DNA of 64,000 nt. Origin: Mariniflexile gromovii. GTDB lineage: Bacteria > Bacteroidota > Bacteroidia > Flavobacteriales > Flavobacteriaceae. Shown in pieces: positions 1-62,380 of this stretch (position 1 is the first letter of the stretch; each line of letters opens with the position of its first letter). The DNA lies in contig NZ_JAGJCB010000004.1 of the NCBI RefSeq assembly GCF_017814435.1, positions 62,001 to 126,000 of the forward strand, in the 5' to 3' direction. The position numbers and the translations under genes were made by a program. The notes under the pieces were generated by a model. That model did no database searches and was not told where the DNA came from. It worked only from the letters and a program-made list of their open reading frames with translations.

Positions 1-158
1 CCATCGTTCAATATATCAATGGCCCGAATACTTAACAACGAATCCTCTAAAATGGTTTCAATCTCTACGTTGGAAAAATTACGTGGTGGTAACGTTTTCT
101 TTTTTCCACAGGAAATAAAAAAAACAATGGTTATCAAGATGACGGAAATCTGTTTCAT
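1..158 (-). CDS. Lipoprotein, 5' part only (cut by window edge)
   Basis: An open frame starts at ATG 158 and runs off the left edge after 52 codons. The N-terminus is a short hydrophobic signal ending in a lipobox (FISC, Cys17) followed by a lysine-rich stretch, so the product should be a lipid-anchored envelope protein. The remaining visible residues (around NFSNVEIETI and SIRAIDIL) resemble the start of flavobacterial YCF48/BNR-repeat lipoproteins, but this is from memory and tentative. It lies 78 bases beyond the second SCO-like gene on the same strand and could be the tail of that operon. Confidence 0.6.
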   Translation of the reverse strand, partial: MKQISVILITIVFFISCGKKKTLPPRNFSNVEIETILEDSLLSIRAIDILND

Positions 159-2394: not shown

Positions 2395-3090
2395 TCAGAT
2401 TTCTTTCTTTAGTGCTTTTAAATCTGTAACCAATTGCGCCAACGAAGCCCTATTTAAACCATTATAAATCCCTCTTATATGTTTGTTTTTATCTATTAGC
2501 AAGAAGTTTTCTGAATGTAAAAAATCATTAATATCTTTTGGAGTTCCTAAATCATTTTCAACAAAGTATTGGTTTCTTCCCAGATTATAAATTTGTGTTT
2601 TATCTCCAGTAACCAAATGCCATTTATTGTCTATAACCCCATTCATTTTAGCATATTGTTTCAGCACCGGAACCGAATCTAATGTTGGCGTAACGGAGTG
2701 CGATAAAAACAAAACCTCGTCATCATTAATAAATTCTTCTTGAAGTTTAAACATATTGCTCGTCATTTGCGGACAAATACCAGGACAACTGGCAAAAAAG
2801 AAATCGGCTACATAAATTTTATCTTCAAAGTTTTTTTGAGTAATTGTATCTCCTAATTGATTGACTAATTCAAAATCTGGAATTTTATGAAATCCTTTTT
2901 CTTCTTTGCTATTTGGCCTTAACCAATGGGGCGTGAAAGATTCATCATTATAATATGGCAAATACTCTACCCTGCTGGTTTCTTCTACGTTAATGGATTC
3001 CTTTTTTACTTCTTTTTTGCATCCAACAACGCCTATTATTAATAAAGCAAAAACCCAATAATTTCTTCTAATCTTTAATAACTTTTTCAT
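2395..3090 (-). CDS. SCO family protein (SCO1/SenC), lipoprotein, module copy 1
   Basis: 231 residues. A lipoprotein signal (VVGC, Cys24) precedes a thioredoxin-like domain with CPGIC (Cys102, Cys106) and a distal His192 in FLHSENF, matching the SCO copper site. Its start lies 23 bases inside the 3' end of the MORN gene, so the two are translationally coupled. Together with the copy at 237-869 it forms a diverged pair: the core KIPDF...DKIYVADFFF...CPGIC...NKWHLVTGDK is shared, while linkers and C-termini differ. It probably handles copper or disulfides in the periplasm for its YHYH/MORN neighbours, by context only. Confidence 0.9.
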   Translation of the reverse strand: MKKLLKIRRNYWVFALLIIGVVGCKKEVKKESINVEETSRVEYLPYYNDESFTPHWLRPNSKEEKGFHKIPDFELVNQLGDTITQKNFEDKIYVADFFFASCPGICPQMTSNMFKLQEEFINDDEVLFLSHSVTPTLDSVPVLKQYAKMNGVIDNKWHLVTGDKTQIYNLGRNQYFVENDLGTPKDINDFLHSENFLLIDKNKHIRGIYNGLNRASLAQLVTDLKALKKEI

Positions 3091-3697
3091 TTTCTAACTG
3101 ATAACATAAATTAGACCGGAGCAAACCAAAAACACGACCATTTTTAGCTTCATAATTAACATATAACGTTCCGTTTTTTAACCAAGCTTGTTGCATCCCA
3201 ACTTCGTTTCCATCAACCAAATGCCTTAGTTTTGATAATTGTCCGTTATCATACCATTGCTTTTCAACACCTTGTTTTACTCCATTTTCATAAGTGGATT
3301 CTTCTGATAATTCACCATTTTCCCAAAAACTTTTATAAATCCCAACCAGATTGTTTTGGTTGTAATAACACTGTACCCTAAGCACTCCAAGTTCCGACCA
3401 TCGTTTGGCTATACCTTGGCGTTTTCCGTTTAAAAAACCTAACTTTTCTTGTAAAACACCGTTGTTATAAAATTTTAATGAGTACCCATTAAAAGGTTTA
3501 CTTTTATAATACCATGTTCCTTCTATTTGATTTAAAACCAACTGGCTTTTAGCAACAACAGTGGTATCTATAATTACAGATTGGTTTTGTTCTTCAACCT
3601 CTTGATTATCTGCAAAGGCATCTTTAGAAGCTTGTTTACAACCAGACAAACAAACCACTAGTAATAAGAAAGAAAATGGTATTATCAAATTTTTCAT
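3068..3697 (-). CDS. MORN-repeat (YwqK-like) lipoprotein, module copy 1
   Basis: 209 residues, with a lipoprotein signal ending at LSGC and about five MORN_2-type repeats from roughly residue 55 to 190 (blocks such as W-x-x-G-x-L-x-x-x-x-x-Y/H). The start codon overlaps the upstream YHYH stop by one base (TAATG), and the 3' end overlaps the SCO gene by 23 bases, so all three genes are tightly coupled. It is homologous to the protein at 921-1490, including the C-terminal (V/A)NYE..NG.(R/E)FGL block. No function is known; the auto-annotation term antitoxin is not supported by context. Confidence 0.8.
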   Translation of the reverse strand: MKNLIIPFSFLLLVVCLSGCKQASKDAFADNQEVEEQNQSVIIDTTVVAKSQLVLNQIEGTWYYKSKPFNGYSLKFYNNGVLQEKLGFLNGKRQGIAKRWSELGVLRVQCYYNQNNLVGIYKSFWENGELSEESTYENGVKQGVEKQWYDNGQLSKLRHLVDGNEVGMQQAWLKNGTLYVNYEAKNGRVFGLLRSNLCYQLENEKVIKD

Positions 3698-4437
3698 TAG
3701 TAACCTCTATACGGACCCGCAAAAGCAATATAAGATCCCGTTGTAGAATATATTTCGTTAATAATGTGGTAATGGTACTCTGCTTCTCCATTAGTATATT
3801 GTGTGGTAGACGTGTGCCCTCCAGATGCATCTAAATCAGTTGGATATGTTCCTGTTGAAGTACATTTACGTCCATAAAGAAATACACCATCCTTTAATAT
3901 GCCCACCAAATTTGAGTCATCGTCGGTAAACGCTTTTGGCTCTAAATGATAATGATAAACACCAGGACCAATGTGAGCCCCCGTCCAATCTAAACTGGCT
4001 GCTGCTTGATTTAATGCGCCATTCCCTTCTTGATCGTTAAAAATAGATGCCCCACTTACCGCGATACCAATAGTGTTTAACTGGGTAGAAACAGTGCTTC
4101 CTGATAAATTTGGAGTTGCATCAACCGTCATGGTTACCGCATTATTGTTACTCGACATAATACTTGGTGTCGTCTCCACATCTGGCTCTTCCATATACAG
4201 GCTGTTACCAACACCCCAATAAACCGTTTTATGATTTGGCAAACCGGTAGTTTCTATAACTACGTTTGAACCGCTTAAATAAATGGTTACCGCATCTGTA
4301 TTAAATGCTGCATATGCTGCGTGAAGCTCTGTTACTACTTCTTCATCTTCTTCGGTAGCAGAACTTTCACTGGAACAAGCAATAAAAACCAAAAGCAATA
4401 AACTTGCAATAATGGATAACTTTAATAGACTTTTCAT
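3697..4437 (-). CDS. YHYH-domain lipoprotein, module copy 1
   Basis: 246 residues, with a lipoprotein signal (FIAC, Cys21) and an acidic linker. YHYH occurs twice (161-164 and 221-224), with DGVFLYGR at 183-190 in the place of DGFPVYGP of the second copy. It opens the first YHYH-MORN-SCO operon. The putative ECF promoter at 4464-4490 ends 27 bases before the ATG, so expression is likely controlled by the sigma factor at 9700-10278. Divergence from the second copy is high outside the YHYH and PNH motifs, suggesting an old duplication with specialisation. Metal binding is an inference from the histidines. Confidence 0.85.
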   Translation of the reverse strand: MKSLLKLSIIASLLLLVFIACSSESSATEEDEEVVTELHAAYAAFNTDAVTIYLSGSNVVIETTGLPNHKTVYWGVGNSLYMEEPDVETTPSIMSSNNNAVTMTVDATPNLSGSTVSTQLNTIGIAVSGASIFNDQEGNGALNQAAASLDWTGAHIGPGVYHYHLEPKAFTDDDSNLVGILKDGVFLYGRKCTSTGTYPTDLDASGGHTSTTQYTNGEAEYHYHIINEIYSTTGSYIAFAGPYRGY

Positions 4438-4463: not shown

Positions 4464-4490
4464 TTAGATGCTCTTTGAAACAAAAACTTG
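4464..4490 (-). promoter_or_regulatory. ECF-type promoter, site A (upstream of YHYH copy 1)
   Basis: On the minus strand the site reads CAAGTTTTT, 10 bases, GCATCTAA, reproducing sites B, C and D with identical spacing. The GCATCTAA block is 27 bases upstream of the YHYH start codon, as expected for a -10 element. Confidence 0.75.
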
Positions 4491-4507
4491 TGCTTCTGTA
4501 TTAAAAA

Positions 4508-4801
4508 TTATTCCTTTTTTGGTTTTTTTGATGGTTTCGGTGCTTTTTCCAATTCTTCTTTTGTTAAAAATCCATCTTCATTAGCATCAATTTTTTTAAA
4601 ATCATCTTTCAAAGGTCCTTTTACTTCCTTCAAGGATAATTTACCATCTTTATTGGCATCCATTTCCTTTAAAAGTTCTTCAATAGTAGGGCGCTGTGGT
4701 TTTTGCTGATTTTTATCAGAAGATTGTGCATTAGTTGTGATAGTGAATAAGCATGTTATTATTCCTAAAATAATTCCTGTTTTTAATGTGCTACGTTTCA
4801 T
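4508..4801 (-). CDS. Small secreted EF-hand protein
   Basis: 97 residues with a Sec signal peptide (cleavage probably near TTNA-QS, residue 25). It has two canonical 12-residue EF-hand loops at 48-59 (DANKDGKLSLKE) and 72-83 (DANEDGFLTKEE), each with Asp/Asn at positions 1, 3 and 5 and Glu at 12, so both should bind calcium. The tail is Lys/Pro-rich. It has its own copy of the ECF promoter (site B, 26 bases upstream) and lies between the CotH operon and the first YHYH module. EF-hand proteins of this kind could be calcium sensors or substrates of the CotH kinase; that link is context only. Confidence 0.85.
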   Translation of the reverse strand: MKRSTLKTGIILGIITCLFTITTNAQSSDKNQQKPQRPTIEELLKEMDANKDGKLSLKEVKGPLKDDFKKIDANEDGFLTKEELEKAPKPSKKPKKE

Positions 4802-4826
4802 AATTTTAAATTAATGTTATGAAGGT

Positions 4827-4853
4827 TTAGATGCTATCTGTTTTAAAAACTTG
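4827..4853 (-). promoter_or_regulatory. ECF-type promoter, site B (upstream of EF-hand gene)
   Basis: Minus strand: CAAGTTTTT, 10 bases, GCATCTAA, 26 bases upstream of the EF-hand ATG. Exact match to the shared motif of sites A, C and D. Confidence 0.75.
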
Positions 4854-4878
4854 TAGCGTATTTTGTTAAATAAATGCC

Positions 4879-4903
4879 AAAAAAAGACCCTAGAAACTAG
4901 GGC
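4879..4903 (-). terminator. Terminator of the VTC-DUF4956-DUF2490-CotH operon
   Basis: Minus-strand stem CCCTAG / CTAGGG with a TTT loop, followed by TCTTTTTTT. It lies about 50 bases beyond the CotH stop and just before the site B promoter region. Confidence 0.75.
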
Positions 4904-4954
4904 CTTCATTACACCATTAGTTTACACTAATAGTCATCAACAAATATGATCAAA

Positions 4955-6367
4955 TTATTTCAAGTAAGTACTTACAGCAGAAGCTCTTGAACTTGCATGT
5001 GTTTTTAAAGTACTTATAGCCAATTGAAAATCTGAGCTGGATTCTAAAAATGTATATCCGGATTTTTCGGTAGTAGCATAGGGTTCAATTAATGCTGCAT
5101 AAGTGGTATATAGCGCTTGAATTGTACTGGTATTAAATGGTCCATCTATAACCTCTTGTAAATAAGCATCGTATTTAGCTTTATAAACCGCATCATTATA
5201 TATATATCCAATTAAGGGCCAGCTAGATGCACTTAAACCCGAAAAGTTTAACGCCAAAGCACCTCCCTGTTTACCTGTTTGTAATGCTTCATTATTATCC
5301 CAAGGTATCCATGTTAACTTATTTGTAGCTGGATCGTTATATAGAAAATAGTTATGCGTCATTCTACCATAAGTATCCCAATTTTGAATGATTGTGTTTA
5401 CCGCTAAATATTTTAAATACTTGTCGGTATCAAAAATAGCATCTAAGTTAGAGCGCCAAGTAGCAGCATCCGATGTTCTTGTTGAAGCATTAATAACCGA
5501 CAACAATCTACTAACATCTGAAAAATCGGCCTCATCTTCATTGTTTTGTTTTTCATATTGACTTTCATTATAAGTACCTGATGCAAACGAAGCCGCCGTA
5601 CCATCTGGCTGATACAAATTACCATCACCATTTGTAAACTGGGTTTCAATGACGGTATCATCAACTTCCTCAACTAAGGTGTATAACCCAAAATATGTTG
5701 GACCATCACCATAATCTACATAAAGTGTATAAAAAGCTGTGTGCGAAACGGCCAACCCTGCATTTTTAAATACATCGGCAGCTACTTTTTCACGCAACAT
5801 AGATTCATCATCAAAATTATTTTTAAGGCTTAATTTTTTAAACCCATAAAAACGTTGGTTTTTAATTTGCGGATAATCGTCTTCATATTCATCAAAATCC
5901 ATTTTAAATGCCAGTTTCATAATGCCACTTTTCCAGGTACTGGACAAACTGGAATTCCCTTTAAAACGTACACCAACTTTATACCATTGTTTTCCGTTAT
6001 AATAAACATCTGCAGGTACAAAAATGGGGTTTTCATCTGAAAAATTATTGCTTCCTCCTCTACCAAAAGTTCCATATAACGACGTCATGTTTGATAACAT
6101 AGCTGCCCAATTTTCTTTTGAAATAACAAAATCAAACCGTTTTACTGCCATATCTTCAAAGACTTCATCAAAATTTGGTTCTGCATCATTGCTATGAGTT
6201 TCGGTGGTCCAATCGGTAGGCACAAAATCTGTATCTTCTATAACGACTTCGCTAGTAGTATCATCTTCCTCATTCACTAATTCTTTAGTTGAGCAACCTA
6301 TAATTACATAGGCATTTATAAACACAATACTTAATAGTAGTGCTAATTTTAAAATTGTTTTTTTCAT
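4955..6367 (-). CDS. CotH kinase family lipoprotein
   Basis: 470 residues. A lipoprotein signal (IIGC, Cys25) and acidic linker lead into a CotH domain from about residue 70 to 400. Typical CotH blocks are visible: FDFVISKENW, the GIMKLAFKMDF strand with the candidate ATP Lys, LSLKNNFDDESMLREKVA, LVEEVDD, and the metal-binding TWIPWDNNEAL. CotH proteins are atypical protein kinases, first described in Bacillus spore coats, and they often neighbour VTC-domain and DUF4956 genes. Here the gene is last in such an operon, 2 bases after the DUF2490 gene. The lipoprotein signal places the kinase outside the cytoplasm, so the phosphate donor and substrate are open questions. Confidence 0.88.
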   Translation of the reverse strand: MKKTILKLALLLSIVFINAYVIIGCSTKELVNEEDDTTSEVVIEDTDFVPTDWTTETHSNDAEPNFDEVFEDMAVKRFDFVISKENWAAMLSNMTSLYGTFGRGGSNNFSDENPIFVPADVYYNGKQWYKVGVRFKGNSSLSSTWKSGIMKLAFKMDFDEYEDDYPQIKNQRFYGFKKLSLKNNFDDESMLREKVAADVFKNAGLAVSHTAFYTLYVDYGDGPTYFGLYTLVEEVDDTVIETQFTNGDGNLYQPDGTAASFASGTYNESQYEKQNNEDEADFSDVSRLLSVINASTRTSDAATWRSNLDAIFDTDKYLKYLAVNTIIQNWDTYGRMTHNYFLYNDPATNKLTWIPWDNNEALQTGKQGGALALNFSGLSASSWPLIGYIYNDAVYKAKYDAYLQEVIDGPFNTSTIQALYTTYAALIEPYATTEKSGYTFLESSSDFQLAISTLKTHASSRASAVSTYLK

Positions 6368-6369
6368 AG

Positions 6370-7089
6370 TTATTTGTTTTTAATGGTGTATTTATAGGAT
6401 AATCCGATGATGTTTGTAGTTTCTGGCAAATCGACATTTAGCTCTTTCTCGAAGCGATAGTACAAACTTATTTTACCGTATTTTTTCATATCGTAATCGG
6501 TTCCAAAGGTTAATCGGTATTTATCGAAACCGCCATCTTCTCCTTTTTCGAAATGATTAAAAATTTCGGCTGAAAATTGCGGGTCGAGTTTCCAGTTTTT
6601 AATGTTGTATTCTACATCTGTTTTAAAACGAAGGTGCTGATTGGCATAATCGCCATCTGCAACAGAAACGGATAAATCGTTTTTATTTTGGTACCTCAAG
6701 CGGTAATCCAGTTTAAAATCGTTGATTTTGTGTTTGTAACTGGCATCGAATTGAAACCTAAAATGATTTTCGTATCCTTGAATATTGCCTTCGGTATCGT
6801 TTTGCCTAATAAATCGCGCCCCTGCACTAAGACTGAAATTTTTATTAACCGAATACTCCGTTTGTAGTTCCGTAAAATATTCATCTACTAATGATAAGTT
6901 TTCTTTTAACCTAAGCTGTTCTGCCAATTCAAAACTCCATTTTTTGTTAAGTTTATATTCAATTGAAACCGTGCTCCAAGCATTTAAATTCTTCGAATTG
7001 CTCGTTTGGGCATTTATATTCATTGGAAAAACTACACTTAGTAGCAATATGAATAAACAGAATGGCTTAATGTTTACTATCTTTTTCAT
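6370..7089 (-). CDS. DUF2490-like outer-membrane beta-barrel protein
   Basis: 239 residues with a Sec signal peptide ending near INA-QT (residue 27). The rest consists of alternating amphipathic beta strands rich in Tyr, Phe and Lys (WSFELAEQLRL, FRFQFDASYK, FKLDYRLRYQNK, KISLYYRFEKEL) and ends in a strand with aromatic residues, typical of small outer-membrane barrels of the DUF2490 type. It lies 9 bases after DUF4956 and 2 bases before CotH, so it is co-translated with the putative kinase. It might export or anchor the product of the VTC/CotH system; no family function is known. Confidence 0.75.
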   Translation of the reverse strand: MKKIVNIKPFCLFILLLSVVFPMNINAQTSNSKNLNAWSTVSIEYKLNKKWSFELAEQLRLKENLSLVDEYFTELQTEYSVNKNFSLSAGARFIRQNDTEGNIQGYENHFRFQFDASYKHKINDFKLDYRLRYQNKNDLSVSVADGDYANQHLRFKTDVEYNIKNWKLDPQFSAEIFNHFEKGEDGGFDKYRLTFGTDYDMKKYGKISLYYRFEKELNVDLPETTNIIGLSYKYTIKNK

Positions 7090-7098
7090 AATTAAATA

Positions 7099-7716
7099 CT
7101 AATTTGTGATTTCTTGATTTCCATTAAAATAAAAAATAGTAATGTTAGCCGTGTCTCTTAAAAAATTGACCTCACCAACAGTTATTCGGTTTATTATTAA
7201 ACCGGTTCTGTTTTCCAAATCACTCTTTAATATGGCATAGTTTTCGGGCTTAATGTTTTCTATGTTTTCATAAATAATAGATTTGGATTCTTCTTGTTTT
7301 AAAGACCAATACCTTTCTATTAGTACAAGAACTACCACGATGATGGTGTTGAATCCAAATATTTCGGCGTAGCTCATTTTTTTATTAGCCAAAGCGTTTA
7401 TTACAGAAATACCAATAACCACGAATAAATAGGTAACTTCTTTTTGAGAAATGGCATCTGTTCTATACCTAAGGATACCAAAAATGGCAAATAAACCGAG
7501 CGCCATCCCTAGGTCCATTTCAAACTTTTTAAGCGCAAAACACAAAAAGAATACGATAAGACTGATTAGGTAATAGGTAAAAACAAAATCTTTTCGTTTT
7601 GAAAATGGGTAATATATAAACCGGATGATTATAGTTAAGAATGTCATGTTGATAAAAAGCCTGACCATCATTTTATAAAAATCATCATTGAAGATTGGGA
7701 TATCCAAAAATTCCAT
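7099..7716 (-). CDS. DUF4956 membrane protein
   Basis: 205 residues with about four transmembrane helices in the first 140 residues. The central conserved signature GLFAIFGILRYRTD (about 88-101) followed by QKEVTYLFVVIGISVINAL marks DUF4956. The C-terminal 60 residues are soluble and mixed alpha/beta. DUF4956 is recurrently encoded next to VTC-domain and CotH proteins in many phyla. A role as membrane partner or channel for the VTC polymerase product is an inference. It follows the VTC gene by 13 bases. Confidence 0.88.
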   Translation of the reverse strand: MEFLDIPIFNDDFYKMMVRLFINMTFLTIIIRFIYYPFSKRKDFVFTYYLISLIVFFLCFALKKFEMDLGMALGLFAIFGILRYRTDAISQKEVTYLFVVIGISVINALANKKMSYAEIFGFNTIIVVVLVLIERYWSLKQEESKSIIYENIENIKPENYAILKSDLENRTGLIINRITVGEVNFLRDTANITIFYFNGNQEITN

Positions 7717-7729
7717 AGGGCAAATTGTG

Positions 7730-8488
7730 TTAAGCAGTTATTTTATTAATTTTTATTAGTTTTTCTTTAAAGCGGTTGTATTTTAAGTTATCGTAAATAC
7801 TAATCATCCCAATGCAATATTTACTGATGCTATAAGGATTGATTTGTTTTGATTTTAATTCTTGAACTATGGGCGAGTTTCTGTTAAAGCGTTCTTGCTT
7901 CAATTCAATAATTACCAAATTATTATAGGTTTTAAACAAATCGTTTTTTTTAAAGGATAGGTTCAAATCTATGGTCAATCGTTCTTTATCGGTTTTATTT
8001 ACCAAGGTAACTCTGTTGAATTGGTTCCAAATAATGGGCTCTAAATCAAAAGTTTCTTGGGTAGTTTTTTTAATAAATGCTCTCGACGCTTCTAAAAGAT
8101 TGGTTTGAAAATTGGGCATGGCTGTTCTGGTTTTAGTGGTATTACCTTTACCGTCTTTCTGCTTTATTTCAAGAAAACAAATATTAGATTCTACATATTT
8201 TCGTATCCTAATTTTTGTTCTATTGTTTTTTCCGTTATGGTGGTCTTTGTAAAACTTATGCTCGGGCGTATCAAAATACAATGAGGAATACGTACTTATT
8301 CTATTCCCGTTTATTTCAACAACTTTATAGGCATCTTCAACACGCTTTAAAACCGACACCAAATCTTTTTCATGAATTACAAACTTGGTATCTGTGCGCT
8401 TCATCAACTTCACATCATCCATTTCTTCCAAAGTAATGGGCAAAAAGTTTTGTATTTCTTTTTCTAATTTATTCGATATTTCATACAT
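7730..8488 (-). CDS. VTC-domain (polyphosphate polymerase-like) protein
   Basis: 252 residues forming a single VTC tunnel domain. Visible motifs are KRTDTKFVI (residues 30-38), YFDTPEHKFYKDHHNGKNNRTKIRIRKY (basic strand lining the tunnel), FLEIKQKDGKG with the EIK Glu/Lys pair, and the late IELKQERF strand. Yeast Vtc4 uses this fold to make polyphosphate from ATP; bacterial stand-alone VTC proteins are less studied. There is no SPX domain. It is the first gene of the operon with DUF4956, DUF2490 and CotH, with ECF promoter C 55 bases upstream of the start. Confidence 0.88.
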   Translation of the reverse strand: MYEISNKLEKEIQNFLPITLEEMDDVKLMKRTDTKFVIHEKDLVSVLKRVEDAYKVVEINGNRISTYSSLYFDTPEHKFYKDHHNGKNNRTKIRIRKYVESNICFLEIKQKDGKGNTTKTRTAMPNFQTNLLEASRAFIKKTTQETFDLEPIIWNQFNRVTLVNKTDKERLTIDLNLSFKKNDLFKTYNNLVIIELKQERFNRNSPIVQELKSKQINPYSISKYCIGMISIYDNLKYNRFKEKLIKINKITA

Positions 8489-8542
8489 GAGTCCATCTTT
8501 ATTAATTAAACACGTGGTACGTTTTTTTCTAATGTTTAATAA

Positions 8543-8569
8543 TTAGATGCCTTTTGTTTTAAAAACTTG
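8543..8569 (-). promoter_or_regulatory. ECF-type promoter, site C (upstream of VTC operon)
   Basis: Minus strand: CAAGTTTTT, 10 bases, GCATCTAA, ending 55 bases before the VTC start codon. It shares an additional AAAACA after the first block with site B. The rest of the 275-base intergenic region is AT-rich and without other recognisable signals apart from the terminator at 8704-8739. Confidence 0.75.
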
Positions 8570-8703
8570 TGTTATTTTAATATTAAATTTACATTACCAT
8601 TTTAACGCACTATTTTTCAATTATTTACTTCTAAAAAAATTCATGAAACTTCTTGTTTTTTTTCTGTTTTAAACATTTAAAAGCCATAAAGAAACATACA
8701 AAG

Positions 8704-8739
8704 CAAAAAAAAACCTGTCAAACAAATTTGCTTAACAGG
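8704..8739 (-). terminator. Terminator of the anti-sigma/sensor operon
   Basis: On the minus strand CCTGT...ACAGG forms the base of a long stem, with an inner TAAGCAAA/TTTGTTTG part that pairs with two G-U wobbles. It is followed by nine Ts. It lies about 25 bases after the stop of the Spy-like gene. Confidence 0.75.
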
Positions 8740-8763
8740 ATTTTCTTCTAATTTGATAATAAA

Positions 8764-9327
8764 TTATTCCGGTCTTGGTGGAGGCCCACCTTCTGGCATA
8801 TTTTCTGGTGGAGGTCCTCCTTGAGGCCTTCCATCTCGTGGCGGTGGACCACCGTTACCTGGTCTTTTGCCGTTAGGCCCTCTGCGCAATGCATCGCGTA
8901 CTATTTGTTCAAAACGTTGCTTTTGCTCTTCGGTGCATATATTACGAATTGCCCTTAAGTGATCAAACATCAACCTTTCATGGACCATTTCCTTTTCTCC
9001 CATTAAGTTCAAAATAGAATCCACTTCAGCTTCAGCAACATGGTCTTTTATTATCAACCTACCCAATTGGTCTTTAAAAACTTTTGTTTCTTCGTTAGAT
9101 GCAACCATCCGCTCATGATGCTCCTTGTCTATTTTTTCAAATTGCTTCATCTGTTCATCATCAAACTTCAAAGCCTTTACTATAAACTCCGATGGACCTC
9201 CGTTTCCGCTCCCCTTTACCAAATTATTGCTTTTGGCAGTAGTAGGACTCAAATAATTGTATAGAAAGAAGCCATTTACCGCCACCAAAAAAACAAGTAA
9301 TATATATAAGATTAAATTATTCTTCAT
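8764..9327 (-). CDS. Spy/CnrX-like periplasmic metal or stress sensor
   Basis: 187 residues. One N-terminal membrane anchor (about 5-25) precedes an all-helical periplasmic domain (about 45-148) of the CpxP/Spy/ZraP type, ending in the LTxxQ-like CTEEQKQRFEQI. Candidate metal ligands are His70, His71 and Met74 on one helix and Met114, His116, Met120 and His123 on another, reminiscent of CnrX. The C-terminal 38 residues are a Pro/Gly/Arg-rich tail (repeats of GGPPP). It follows the small membrane protein by 5 bases and lies in the sigma locus. By analogy with CnrYXH it would bind the anti-sigma factor and control its hold on the sigma factor; the signal is unknown. Confidence 0.8.
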   Translation of the reverse strand: MKNNLILYILLVFLVAVNGFFLYNYLSPTTAKSNNLVKGSGNGGPSEFIVKALKFDDEQMKQFEKIDKEHHERMVASNEETKVFKDQLGRLIIKDHVAEAEVDSILNLMGEKEMVHERLMFDHLRAIRNICTEEQKQRFEQIVRDALRRGPNGKRPGNGGPPPRDGRPQGGPPPENMPEGGPPPRPE

Positions 9328-9332
9328 GCGTC

Positions 9333-9650
9333 TTATTTTAAATTCAGTATTGTATCGTCCGAACTTGAAGTAAGTCCGTAAGTTTCAGCAAACGCATCAA
9401 CATTTGTTATGTATTGGTTCGAATTGTATTGTCTAAAAGCCAAAACGTTTAAAACAATAAAACAAACCAATGTTGCCAATTGCAATTTAGGCGTAAACCA
9501 ACCCCAAGCCACTGCAACCTCTTCCTTTTCCGCAAACAAACGTTGCATGGTTTTATCCTTAAAAAAAGGAGATACATTCACGTTTTCAATAGCATCCATA
9601 GACGCAAAAGTGTCATCTATTTTCTTTTGAATGTTGTTATTTGTTTCCAT
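9333..9650 (-). CDS. Small single-TM protein, probable anti-sigma factor
   Basis: 105 residues from ATG 9650. About 50 cytoplasmic residues precede one transmembrane helix (around 57-74, LQLATLVCFIVLNVLAF) and a short periplasmic tail. No sequence family is recognised. Size, topology and position directly after an ECF sigma gene and before a CnrX-like sensor fit a CnrY-like anti-sigma factor. An upstream in-frame ATG at 9680 would add ten residues (MHLKK...), but it lies inside the promoter motif at 9671-9697, so the 9650 start, 21 bases below the GCATCTAA box, is preferred. Confidence 0.7.
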   Translation of the reverse strand: METNNNIQKKIDDTFASMDAIENVNVSPFFKDKTMQRLFAEKEEVAVAWGWFTPKLQLATLVCFIVLNVLAFRQYNSNQYITNVDAFAETYGLTSSSDDTILNLK

Positions 9651-9670
9651 TTTCTTTGTGTTATACTTTT

Positions 9671-9697
9671 TTAGATGCAATACTTATTAAAAACTTG
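9671..9697 (-). promoter_or_regulatory. ECF-type promoter, site D (upstream of anti-sigma/sensor operon)
   Basis: Minus strand: CAAGTTTTT, 10 bases, GCATCTAA, lying between the sigma stop codon and the anti-sigma start. It makes the anti-sigma/sensor pair a likely target of the sigma factor, a negative feedback loop, while the sigma gene itself lies outside. Confidence 0.75.
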
Positions 9698-9699
9698 CG

Positions 9700-10278
9700 T
9701 TAAACTTCACTTTTAAAAAAATCGCCCAATAAATCCTGTAAATTCTTCTTTGCCCTAAACATTAGCGACTCTACCGATGAAACACTTTTTTCGGTAATCT
9801 CGCTCACCTCTTCATAGCTTTTACCATCTACTTTGCAAAGCGTAAAAACCACCTTTTGCGCTTCAGGCAATGCATTAATGGCCTTAAACAAAGTTTCACT
9901 TTTCTCTTTGTTTTCCAATAAAATACCTGGGTGGTTCATTTCAGTAAAGTAGGCCGTTTTATCAAAAGGCACATTATTTCCCGTAATACTTTGTAAAAAA
10001 CCAAAACGCTTTTTCGTGCTTTTTTTTCTAATAAACTCCAAACATTTGTTGGTTGTAATTCTGTAAATCCATGTAGAAAGCTTCGAATTTCCTTTAAATT
10101 TTCCAATCGAATTAAACACCTCCACAAAAACCTCCTGGGCAATATCTTCGGCATCCTCCCTATTCGGCACAAACGACATACAAGTAGCAAACACCTTTTG
10201 CTGATAATCATCAATCAATTTCCCATAAGCCTTTTGGCTATGGTTTCGCAACTCGGTTATAAACTCGTTTTCTGTCAA
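9700..10278 (-). CDS. ECF-type RNA polymerase sigma factor
   Basis: 192 residues. Region 2 (about 10-85) contains the core-binding DAEDIAQEVFVEVF and the -10-reading STWIYRITTNKCLEFIRKK segment. Region 4 (about 125-185) carries the helix-turn-helix SYEEVSEITEKSVSSVESLMFRAKKNLQ that reads the -35 box. The likely targets are the four CAAGTTTTT-N10-GCATCTAA promoters at 4464, 4827, 8543 and 9671. No copy of the motif precedes the sigma gene, so it may be expressed from a housekeeping promoter and held inactive by the protein at 9333-9650. A 99-bp intergenic repeat lies upstream, and rsmB-like diverges beyond it. Confidence 0.92.
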   Translation of the reverse strand: MTENEFITELRNHSQKAYGKLIDDYQQKVFATCMSFVPNREDAEDIAQEVFVEVFNSIGKFKGNSKLSTWIYRITTNKCLEFIRKKSTKKRFGFLQSITGNNVPFDKTAYFTEMNHPGILLENKEKSETLFKAINALPEAQKVVFTLCKVDGKSYEEVSEITEKSVSSVESLMFRAKKNLQDLLGDFFKSEV

Positions 10279-61652: not shown

Positions 61653-62380
61653 TATAAAAGCGTAACGGTTTTTAAATCGAATTCTTTAATTATATCATCT
61701 TCAAGCAATATTTGTAGGTTTCCATAATCTGAAACGCCTTTTATAATACCAGAAAACATCAAACCTTCAGCATCTTGAAATGTTGAAGGTTTATTTTTTC
61801 TAAAAAGAGATGCTTCATATTTTTCTTTAAGCACATCTAAGTGTCCCCTTTTTAAAATATTGAAATAATGCTTTAAGTTTTTGATGATAACGATGGTTAC
61901 TTCATCCAGATCAAAAACACGTCCAGAAATCAGTCTTAATGATGATGCCTTGGGTAAATTATCAAATTCTAATTGGTTAACATTAAGCCCCATTCCAATA
62001 ATAGAACTCGAAAACTTATTTTGTTTAAACACATTTTCAATTAAAATGCCACAGATTTTCTTGTTTTCTGACAAAATGTCGTTAGGCCATTTTACGCTCA
62101 ATTTCGGGATAGAAAAAGATTTTAAAGTTTTTAATAATGCTAAAGAAATGACCATACTTATGTAAAAAGGGTCTTCTATATTATATTGAAAAATATCTTT
62201 ATACACACTGAATGTAAGGTTTTTAGACGCTTCAGAGTCCCAAACCGTCCCCATTTGCCCTCTACCATTTGTTTGCAATTTGGTAACTACAGCCGTATAA
62301 TCGGCAACCTGTTCATTTACAGAAAGTCTCTTTAAATAACTATTTGTAGAATCGGTGGCATCAAGTTTGATTATATGCAT
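61649..62380 (-). CDS. birA: Biotin-[acetyl-CoA carboxylase] ligase
   Basis: 243 residues, a BPL/LPL catalytic domain without the N-terminal HTH of E. coli BirA. Motifs: DATDSTNSYLKR, TNGRGQMGTVWDSEASKNLTFSV (biotin-binding), VKWPNDILSENKKICGILIEN. A C-terminal SH3-like domain is reduced but present (about 195-243). It attaches biotin to carboxylase carrier proteins. Divergent from rsfS. Confidence 0.93.
   Translation of the reverse strand: MHIIKLDATDSTNSYLKRLSVNEQVADYTAVVTKLQTNGRGQMGTVWDSEASKNLTFSVYKDIFQYNIEDPFYISMVISLALLKTLKSFSIPKLSVKWPNDILSENKKICGILIENVFKQNKFSSSIIGMGLNVNQLEFDNLPKASSLRLISGRVFDLDEVTIVIIKNLKHYFNILKRGHLDVLKEKYEASLFRKNKPSTFQDAEGLMFSGIIKGVSDYGNLQILLEDDIIKEFDLKTVTLLY

Follow-up and report, generated by a model that had tools for sequence, protein, structure and literature searches.

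The 64,000-nucleotide stretch of the Mariniflexile gromovii genome analyzed here (positions 62,001 to 126,000 of contig NZ_JAGJCB010000004.1, referred to below as the window) was found to carry four copies of a two-block motif, CAAGTTTTT-N10-GCATCTAA, which are very probably promoters of the extracytoplasmic function (ECF) sigma factor encoded beside them at 9700–10278. The regulon so defined very probably joins YHYH-MORN-SCO1 proteins to CotH, VTC, DUF4956 and EF-hand proteins. As a whole, this interpretation, in which the four motifs belong to a regulon headed by a triad of sigma factor, anti-sigma factor and LTXXQ-type sensor, is held with high confidence. It is supported at the sequence level by the motif itself, its strict spacing, its placement outside genes, its co-occurrence with the sigma factor, its conservation before orthologous and distant (trans) targets, and the triad. 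All motifs, genes and stem-loops of the window described below lie on the minus strand.

A search of the whole M. gromovii genome (4.28 Mb, 52 contigs) with the exact motif returned four matches, all in the window, while the reversed pattern gave none in the same genome and 100 dinucleotide shuffles contained no copy. The four copies are located at 9671–9697 (−35-like block at 9689–9697, −10-like block at 9671–9678), 8543–8569, 4827–4853 and 4464–4490. Both blocks are invariant in all four and are separated by a 10-base spacer of variable sequence, exactly as a sequence-only reading of the region had described. All four are intergenic and head the units assigned to them in that reading, namely the anti-sigma/sensor operon (20 bases to the ATG at 9650), the VTC-DUF4956-DUF2490-CotH operon (54 bases to the ATG at 8488), the EF-hand gene (25 bases to the ATG at 4801) and a YHYH-MORN-SCO1 operon (26 bases to the ATG at 4437); the range of 21–55 bases given previously agrees with the measured 20–54 bases and differs by one base in the counting. 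A position weight matrix (PWM) was trained on 91 sites with at most one mismatch from 41 related loci, the lowest training score being 21.8. When the window was scanned with it, only these four sites were recovered (28.2–40.1; 40.1, 33.7, 28.2 and 35.0 in the order above), the runner-up scoring 8.1, and no site was detected before the sigma gene or before a second YHYH module at 237–2252. At up to three mismatches the genome gave 71 matches against 37 for the reversed control, and such matches are therefore unusable singly.

Orthologs of the sigma factor (E <= 1e-60) were identified in 48 of 397 Flavobacteriaceae genomes. The exact motif was present in 34 of these 48 genomes and in none of the remaining 349, with 56 sites in total compared with a single match of the reversed control. 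When one mismatch was allowed, the counts were 47 of 48 and 32 of 349, the lone exception among the sigma-positive genomes being G396, in which a degenerate site scoring 28.8 with the PWM precedes the YHYH gene. Fisher tests, uncorrected for kinship, gave p = 2.7e-38 for the exact motif and 1.8e-38 at one mismatch. A chance origin of the exact motif was ruled out by the shuffles, the count in the M. gromovii genome and the counts over the 397 genomes. YHYH genes occur in 46 of the 48 sigma-positive genomes (not in G112 and G294) and in 79 of the 349 others (p 6e-24). Among 60 relatives, a close ortholog (>=74% identity) was found in eight, M. gromovii included, and the motif with at most one mismatch was found in those eight and in G008, where the site overlaps the end of a long open reading frame (ORF). 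In one genome of the same genus (G002), the close sigma ortholog, the motif and YHYH genes were all three not found. Beyond the family, relatives of the sigma factor (E <= 1e-35) were detected in 83 of 247 genomes from other families of the phylum.

The anatomy of the sites was compared in 80 named loci, of which 41 are close ortholog loci and 39 are more distant. In the close loci the pair CAAGTT/ATCTAA has 100 occurrences with 15 bases between the two elements, and no other gap from 5 to 30 has more than two. The consensus of the 91 sites is aRCRCAAGTTTTT-N10-GCATCTAAA, from which the window site at 4827–4853 departs in carrying T instead of C at the second position ahead of CAAG; the 27-mer recognized previously was slightly short. 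None of the 91 sites falls within an ORF that is labelled or reaches 120 amino acids (aa). The sequence-only reading had named a random occurrence in coding sequence as an outcome that would speak against promoters, and the motif as a feature of coding sequence is ruled out, with all four exact copies of the window and 91 of 91 ortholog-locus sites outside genes. Eighty-seven sites have a gene start no more than 300 bases away, the remaining four being farther off or without a labelled gene. The genes behind the 87 sites encode anti-sigma factors (33), YHYH proteins (22, in 20 loci), the sigma factor (15), EF-hand proteins (11), CotH proteins (two), unlabelled proteins (two), a BNR-type protein and a Cthe_2159 protein. 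The arrangement for the negative feedback proposed from the window, where anti-sigma factor and sensor stand behind a motif, recurs at one mismatch or fewer in 33 of the 41 loci. In 15 of the 41, unlike in the window, a motif precedes the sigma gene. Where the YHYH/EF-hand operon is inverted (L119, L131, L135, and L136), the motif lies on the strand of the operon. Two loci (L124 and L126) have no site with one mismatch or fewer but carry degenerate ones (PWM 21–30).

Across the more distant set of 39 loci, 13 matches to AAGTT-N16-TCTAA were found at this gap compared with 0–3 at others. AAGTT with TCTAA or TCAAA at the same distance stands directly before the sigma, anti-sigma or YHYH gene in 12 of these loci, and several additional matches fall inside genes. 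In four loci of Bacteroidales or Chitinophagaceae type (L174, L172, L152, and L159) the −10 element is GTCTAA or GTCAAA, not GCATCTAA, and the promoter code may have drifted together with the sigma factor there.

Most exact sites (47 of 56) are no farther than 6 kb from the sigma gene. The nine trans sites were all examined and are all intergenic, heading genes for YHYH proteins (G361, G003, G374, and G073), a CotH-LTD protein (G195), a di-haem MauG protein (G110), a Porph_ging protein (G357), and CHU_C proteins (G374 and G200); the YHYH protein of G361 and the CHU_C protein of G200 were identified by likeness to their counterparts and not by Pfam. At one mismatch at least 14 trans sites exist. 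Among the 14 examined, five head genes for CotH, EF-hand, VTC or YHYH proteins (L096, L235, L238, L244, and L247, the last identified by likeness to L246), and others head a CHU_C protein (L232) and a Gly-rich exported-type protein (L233). The idea of one coordinately controlled system is supported in that the motif follows the sigma ortholog and trans copies often head the same kinds of gene, but the regulon extends beyond the locus. The Gly-rich protein behind the one-mismatch site in G361 has a counterpart in M. gromovii (50% identical), whose gene lies 45 bases downstream of a two-mismatch site with a PWM score of 23.3, above the lowest training score of 21.8. This gene is predicted to be a fifth, weaker target; the other four two-mismatch sites of the genome score 3.6–9.5. 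No resistance-nodulation-division (RND) efflux pump was found behind the window motifs or at the Pfam-scanned trans targets, the downstream genes of some sites being unscanned.

The presumed reader of the motif is a protein of 192 aa with Sigma70_r2 (4.2e-18) and Sigma70_r4_2 (9.4e-16) domains. It consists of regions 2 and 4 only, in approximately 190 aa, as in ECF sigma factors, and its best solved relative is E. coli sigma-E (6.9e-25). Adjoining it is a protein of 105 aa (9333–9650) with one transmembrane (TM)-like segment, to which no match was found in Pfam, NCBIfam or the PDB, and which we infer from its position and TM segment to be the anti-sigma factor. The third member (8764–9327; LTXXQ 4.5e-8) is a membrane-anchored periplasmic protein of Spy/CpxP/CnrX type and the presumed sensor or co-regulator. 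An ECF sigma factor, a single-TM presumed anti-sigma factor and a membrane-anchored LTXXQ protein are thus encoded together, as in CnrYXH-type systems. The LTXXQ protein follows the sigma factor in 79 of the 80 named loci, and an anti-sigma factor was recognized in 63, several others having an unlabelled ORF of approximately 90–145 aa at that place. Both partners keep an Asn in the TM helix, the sensor in 79 of 80 sequences and the anti-sigma factor (N68) in 62 of 64, which suggests that they are in contact within the membrane.

The profile of the sensor matched Spy (2.6e-6), NccX (0.0012) and CnrX (0.013). Its AlphaFold model (mean predicted local distance difference test score, pLDDT, 83.4) gave CnrX at all of Foldseek ranks 1–11 (best E 2.6e-3). 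Superposition on CnrX resulted in a Z of 11.6 with a root-mean-square deviation of 2.4 over 105 aligned residues, while unrelated helical chains reached Z 10.5, and the four-helix fold of CnrX is therefore suggested but not safe. HMMER gave only Spy and VirG-like alignments, and the metal ligands were compared over the near-gapless ranges of the structural alignment (offset +4). H42, H46, E63 and H119 are metal ligands of CnrX. M123 is a further one (PMC7689651). The window sensor has S46, V50, D67, H123 and I127 at these five positions. Over the 80 sequences, His occupies the H119 position in 41 and Met the M123 position in four, the E63 position is variable, and His is not among the commonest residues at the H42 and H46 positions. 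Two other candidate ligands are better kept, namely H70 (42 of 42 close sequences, 61 of 80 overall) and C131 (38 of 42 and 73 of 80).

For the binding of the motif by the sigma factor, the identity of the anti-sigma factor, the transmission of the signal and the nature of that signal, we infer the following course of events. Without a signal, the sigma factor would be held by the small single-TM anti-sigma factor, which is probably complexed in the inner membrane with the periplasmic LTXXQ protein, itself anchored by a TM segment. A signal at the envelope (metal, redox or misfolded protein) would alter the LTXXQ protein and free the sigma factor, which would then transcribe its own anti-sigma factor and sensor, resulting in negative feedback. 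It would also transcribe the VTC-DUF4956-DUF2490-CotH operon, the EF-hand gene and the YHYH-MORN-SCO1 operon, and probably the distant gene for the Gly-rich exported protein. Our leading guess for the signal, tentatively held, is an envelope response linked to metal or redox; the alternative is general envelope protein stress.

Several observations weigh against this interpretation. The promoter reading has comparative support, which is not proof. The sequence-only reading was right to place an ECF sigma factor beside the motifs, but its gene is itself without a motif in the window and without any link to it. At one mismatch the reversed control matched approximately 30 of the 397 genomes, comparable to the 32 sigma-negative genomes with a match, and single one-mismatch matches are weak for this reason. 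The Fisher p-values overstate independence because the genomes are related, and YHYH genes are not restricted to genomes with the sigma factor, as the 79 sigma-negative carriers indicate. Coding sequence contains three of the 14 one-mismatch trans sites (L097, L248, and L249), and four others head genes without an evident link (L234, L237, L239, and L240). The predicted fifth site in M. gromovii carries two mismatches, and the sensor does not retain three of the five CnrX ligands (H42, H46, and M123), so that metal sensing is only a possibility.

It could be argued that the motif is a two-block operator of a DNA-binding regulator and that the neighboring sigma gene is coincidental. A dimeric regulator could fit two blocks separated by about two helical turns. 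However, the blocks run in the same direction instead of being inverted copies and lie upstream of start codons at the distances given above, and the exact motif tracks the sigma ortholog over the 397 genomes. Blocks of sigma-E type promoters are approximately 22 bases apart, start to start, and the block distance found here fits such ECF −35/−10 geometry. An operator is considered very improbable, the unlabelled ORFs of the 80 loci not having been screened for further regulators. A different question is whether the LTXXQ protein acts only as a Spy-like effector chaperone, the anti-sigma factor being freed by proteolysis or sensing directly. The co-transcribed protein of Phocaeicola vulgatus has been interpreted as a Spy chaperone (PMC13114119), the best sequence match of the sensor profile is Spy, and in some far loci an extra LTXXQ protein is encoded (in L148 together with DUF2202). 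Against this stand its TM-like N terminus, its nearly constant place after the sigma factor, the TM Asn conserved in both partners, which suggests membrane contact, and CnrX as the top structural match of the model. A chaperone role alone is possible, but we do not favor it.

The promoter reading would be narrowed, not opposed, if the regulon were a copper/oxidative envelope response, in which the LTXXQ protein senses copper or copper-damaged proteins, YHYH, SCO1, MauG and MbnP proteins handle copper or redox repair, and CotH, VTC and EF-hand proteins form a surface layer. The SCO1 proteins retain CPGIC and a later His, an MbnP-MauG-YHYH operon is encoded with a distant triad (L091), MbnP and MauG occur in six of the 39 distant loci, and an exact trans motif heads the MauG gene in G110. 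H70 and C131 of the sensor, and a model nearest to the metal sensor CnrX, point the same way. However, the CnrX positions H42, H46 and M123 are unconserved, the LTXXQ fold is common to the chaperones Spy and CpxP, and no efflux pump was seen behind the window motifs or among the scanned trans targets. EF-hand, CotH and VTC proteins have no evident copper role, and close MbnP homologues were, at the time of the account consulted, without data tying them to copper (PMC3621798). The copper reading is thus regarded as tentative. The triad targets change with evolutionary distance. It is rather unlikely, in our estimation, that triads throughout the phylum share TM-Asn coupling and, from Bacteroidales to Flavobacteriaceae, a single promoter code with their targets swapped, the Flavobacteriaceae having a copper/redox programme of exported YHYH metal enzymes and a phosphate/calcium-rich surface built by CotH, VTC and EF-hand proteins.

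The closest described system is CirY/CirZ/Spy of P. vulgatus, also of the Bacteroidota, which has the same gene order of ECF sigma factor, anti-sigma factor and Spy-like protein, and in which cirY, spy and two genes downstream are induced once the anti-sigma gene, cirZ, is deleted (PMC13114119). On account of this order and this derepression, the triad can be assigned to a described kind. CirY and the window sigma factor are likened by gene order, not by sequence orthology, and the CirY regulon is small with genes of peptidoglycan-hydrolase type; the accessible part of that paper mentions no YHYH, SCO1, CotH, VTC or EF-hand genes and no promoter motif (PMC13114119). CnrYXH of Cupriavidus metallidurans has in common the ECF sigma factor, membrane anti-sigma factor and membrane-anchored periplasmic sensor, and perhaps the sensor fold (PMC7689651). 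In contrast, the window has the order sigma, anti-sigma, sensor, the candidate ligands H70 and C131, and targets that, as far as seen, include no efflux pump. CpxP and Spy of E. coli share family and fold with the LTXXQ protein, which, however, has a TM anchor and goes with an ECF sigma factor instead of the CpxA or BaeS kinases; the CpxP/CpxAR case of PMC2912261 was judged not relevant. The MbnI/MbnR system with MbnP/MbnH in methanotrophs resembles distant loci L091 and L140 in that an ECF system neighbors an MbnP-MauG pair, but it is described with a FecIR-type anti-sigma factor and a TonB transporter (PMC3621798), and MbnP and MauG genes are absent from the window locus. In the promoter map of F. 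psychrophilum, the ECF-like motif SM6 differs, having a CGT −10 box and relating to type IX secretion (PMC9723704). In a Prevotella intermedia biofilm, genes for an LTXXQ protein and for an ECF sigma factor were both up, with locus tags far apart (PMC2633007), and class I anti-sigma factors are reported to accompany only 6% of Bacteroidetes ECFs (PMC7406223). No description of the flavobacterial regulon and its promoter code was recognized in a literature search that reached few subscription papers, PMC13114119 being the nearest. A promoter code readable in silico would assign YHYH, MORN_2, DUF4956, DUF2490, CotH, VTC and EF-hand proteins, families whose role is mostly poorly understood, to one response in many Flavobacteriaceae, and the new envelope response of gut Bacteroidales (CirYZ) may connect to a widespread marine one, if the orthology is true.

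The anti-sigma/sensor unit is closed by a terminator-like stem-loop at 8714–8739 (11 pairs and a T tract). The following operon encodes a VTC-domain, polyphosphate-polymerase-like protein (7730–8488; PF09359 2.6e-35), a DUF4956 membrane protein with four TM-like segments (7099–7716; PF16316 1.4e-52), a DUF2490 protein with a hydrophobic N terminus (6370–7089; PF10677 1.4e-26), and a CotH-kinase-family protein (4955–6367; PF08757 2.7e-69) whose hydrophobic N terminus is followed by a Cys, as in lipoproteins. CotH, polyphosphate polymerase and DUF4956 genes are also co-located beside Gram-positive pel loci (PMC7112168); unlike these, the window operon adds DUF2490, sits behind an ECF motif and has no pel genes. 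The small EF-hand protein (4508–4801; EF-hand_5 3.8e-12) has a signal-like N terminus and loops at 48 and 72.

The motif-headed YHYH unit (2395–4437, copy b) encodes a YHYH-domain protein (3697–4437; PF14240 3.7e-9), a MORN_2 repeat protein (3068–3697; PF07661 3.9e-12) and a SCO1/SenC protein (2395–3090; PF02630 1.9e-23), followed by a terminator-like stem-loop at 2330–2361 (13 pairs and a T-rich tail). The terminator scan returned 10 stems in the region compared with 7.7 expected, and each is only suggestive. The assignment of the YHYH module to the motif holds for this copy and not for the second YHYH-MORN-SCO1 module (237–2252, copy a), which lies beyond the stem and is not headed by a motif; in two relatives (L088 and L089), YHYH genes of the copy-a type do have one upstream. 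The two YHYH proteins are 29% identical, two modules in succession also occur in L125 and L128, and copies a and b look like two old subtypes. The YHYH domain has been predicted to bind Zn and to act as a metal-dependent hydrolase (PMC7824862). In an alignment of 38 sequences, H155, H162, H164, D150, D183 and D203 were invariant, and the model of the YHYH protein (mean pLDDT 74.8; the other four models 48–66) gave no useful PDB match.

A few further features of these loci were observed. A BNR/YCF48-like exported-type protein of 350 aa is encoded after the SCO1 gene (window 1–158, minus strand; L093:15107-16159), with relatives in 23 of the 80 named loci. A second ECF sigma factor, approximately 30% identical, is encoded directly to the left of the window (L093:13458-14962; G000:C34); in six of seven mapped relatives (L084–L086 and L088–L090) it stands with two small genes (~140–170 aa) at the opposite end of the locus, with an ORF of approximately 610 aa nearby. 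The nos genes suspected beside the triad in L119 were ruled out by the sequences. In a Kordia metagenome-assembled genome (L122:12786-13589), the YHYH region consists of several short ORFs (74, 105, and 68 aa), reflecting either a broken gene or an assembly error.

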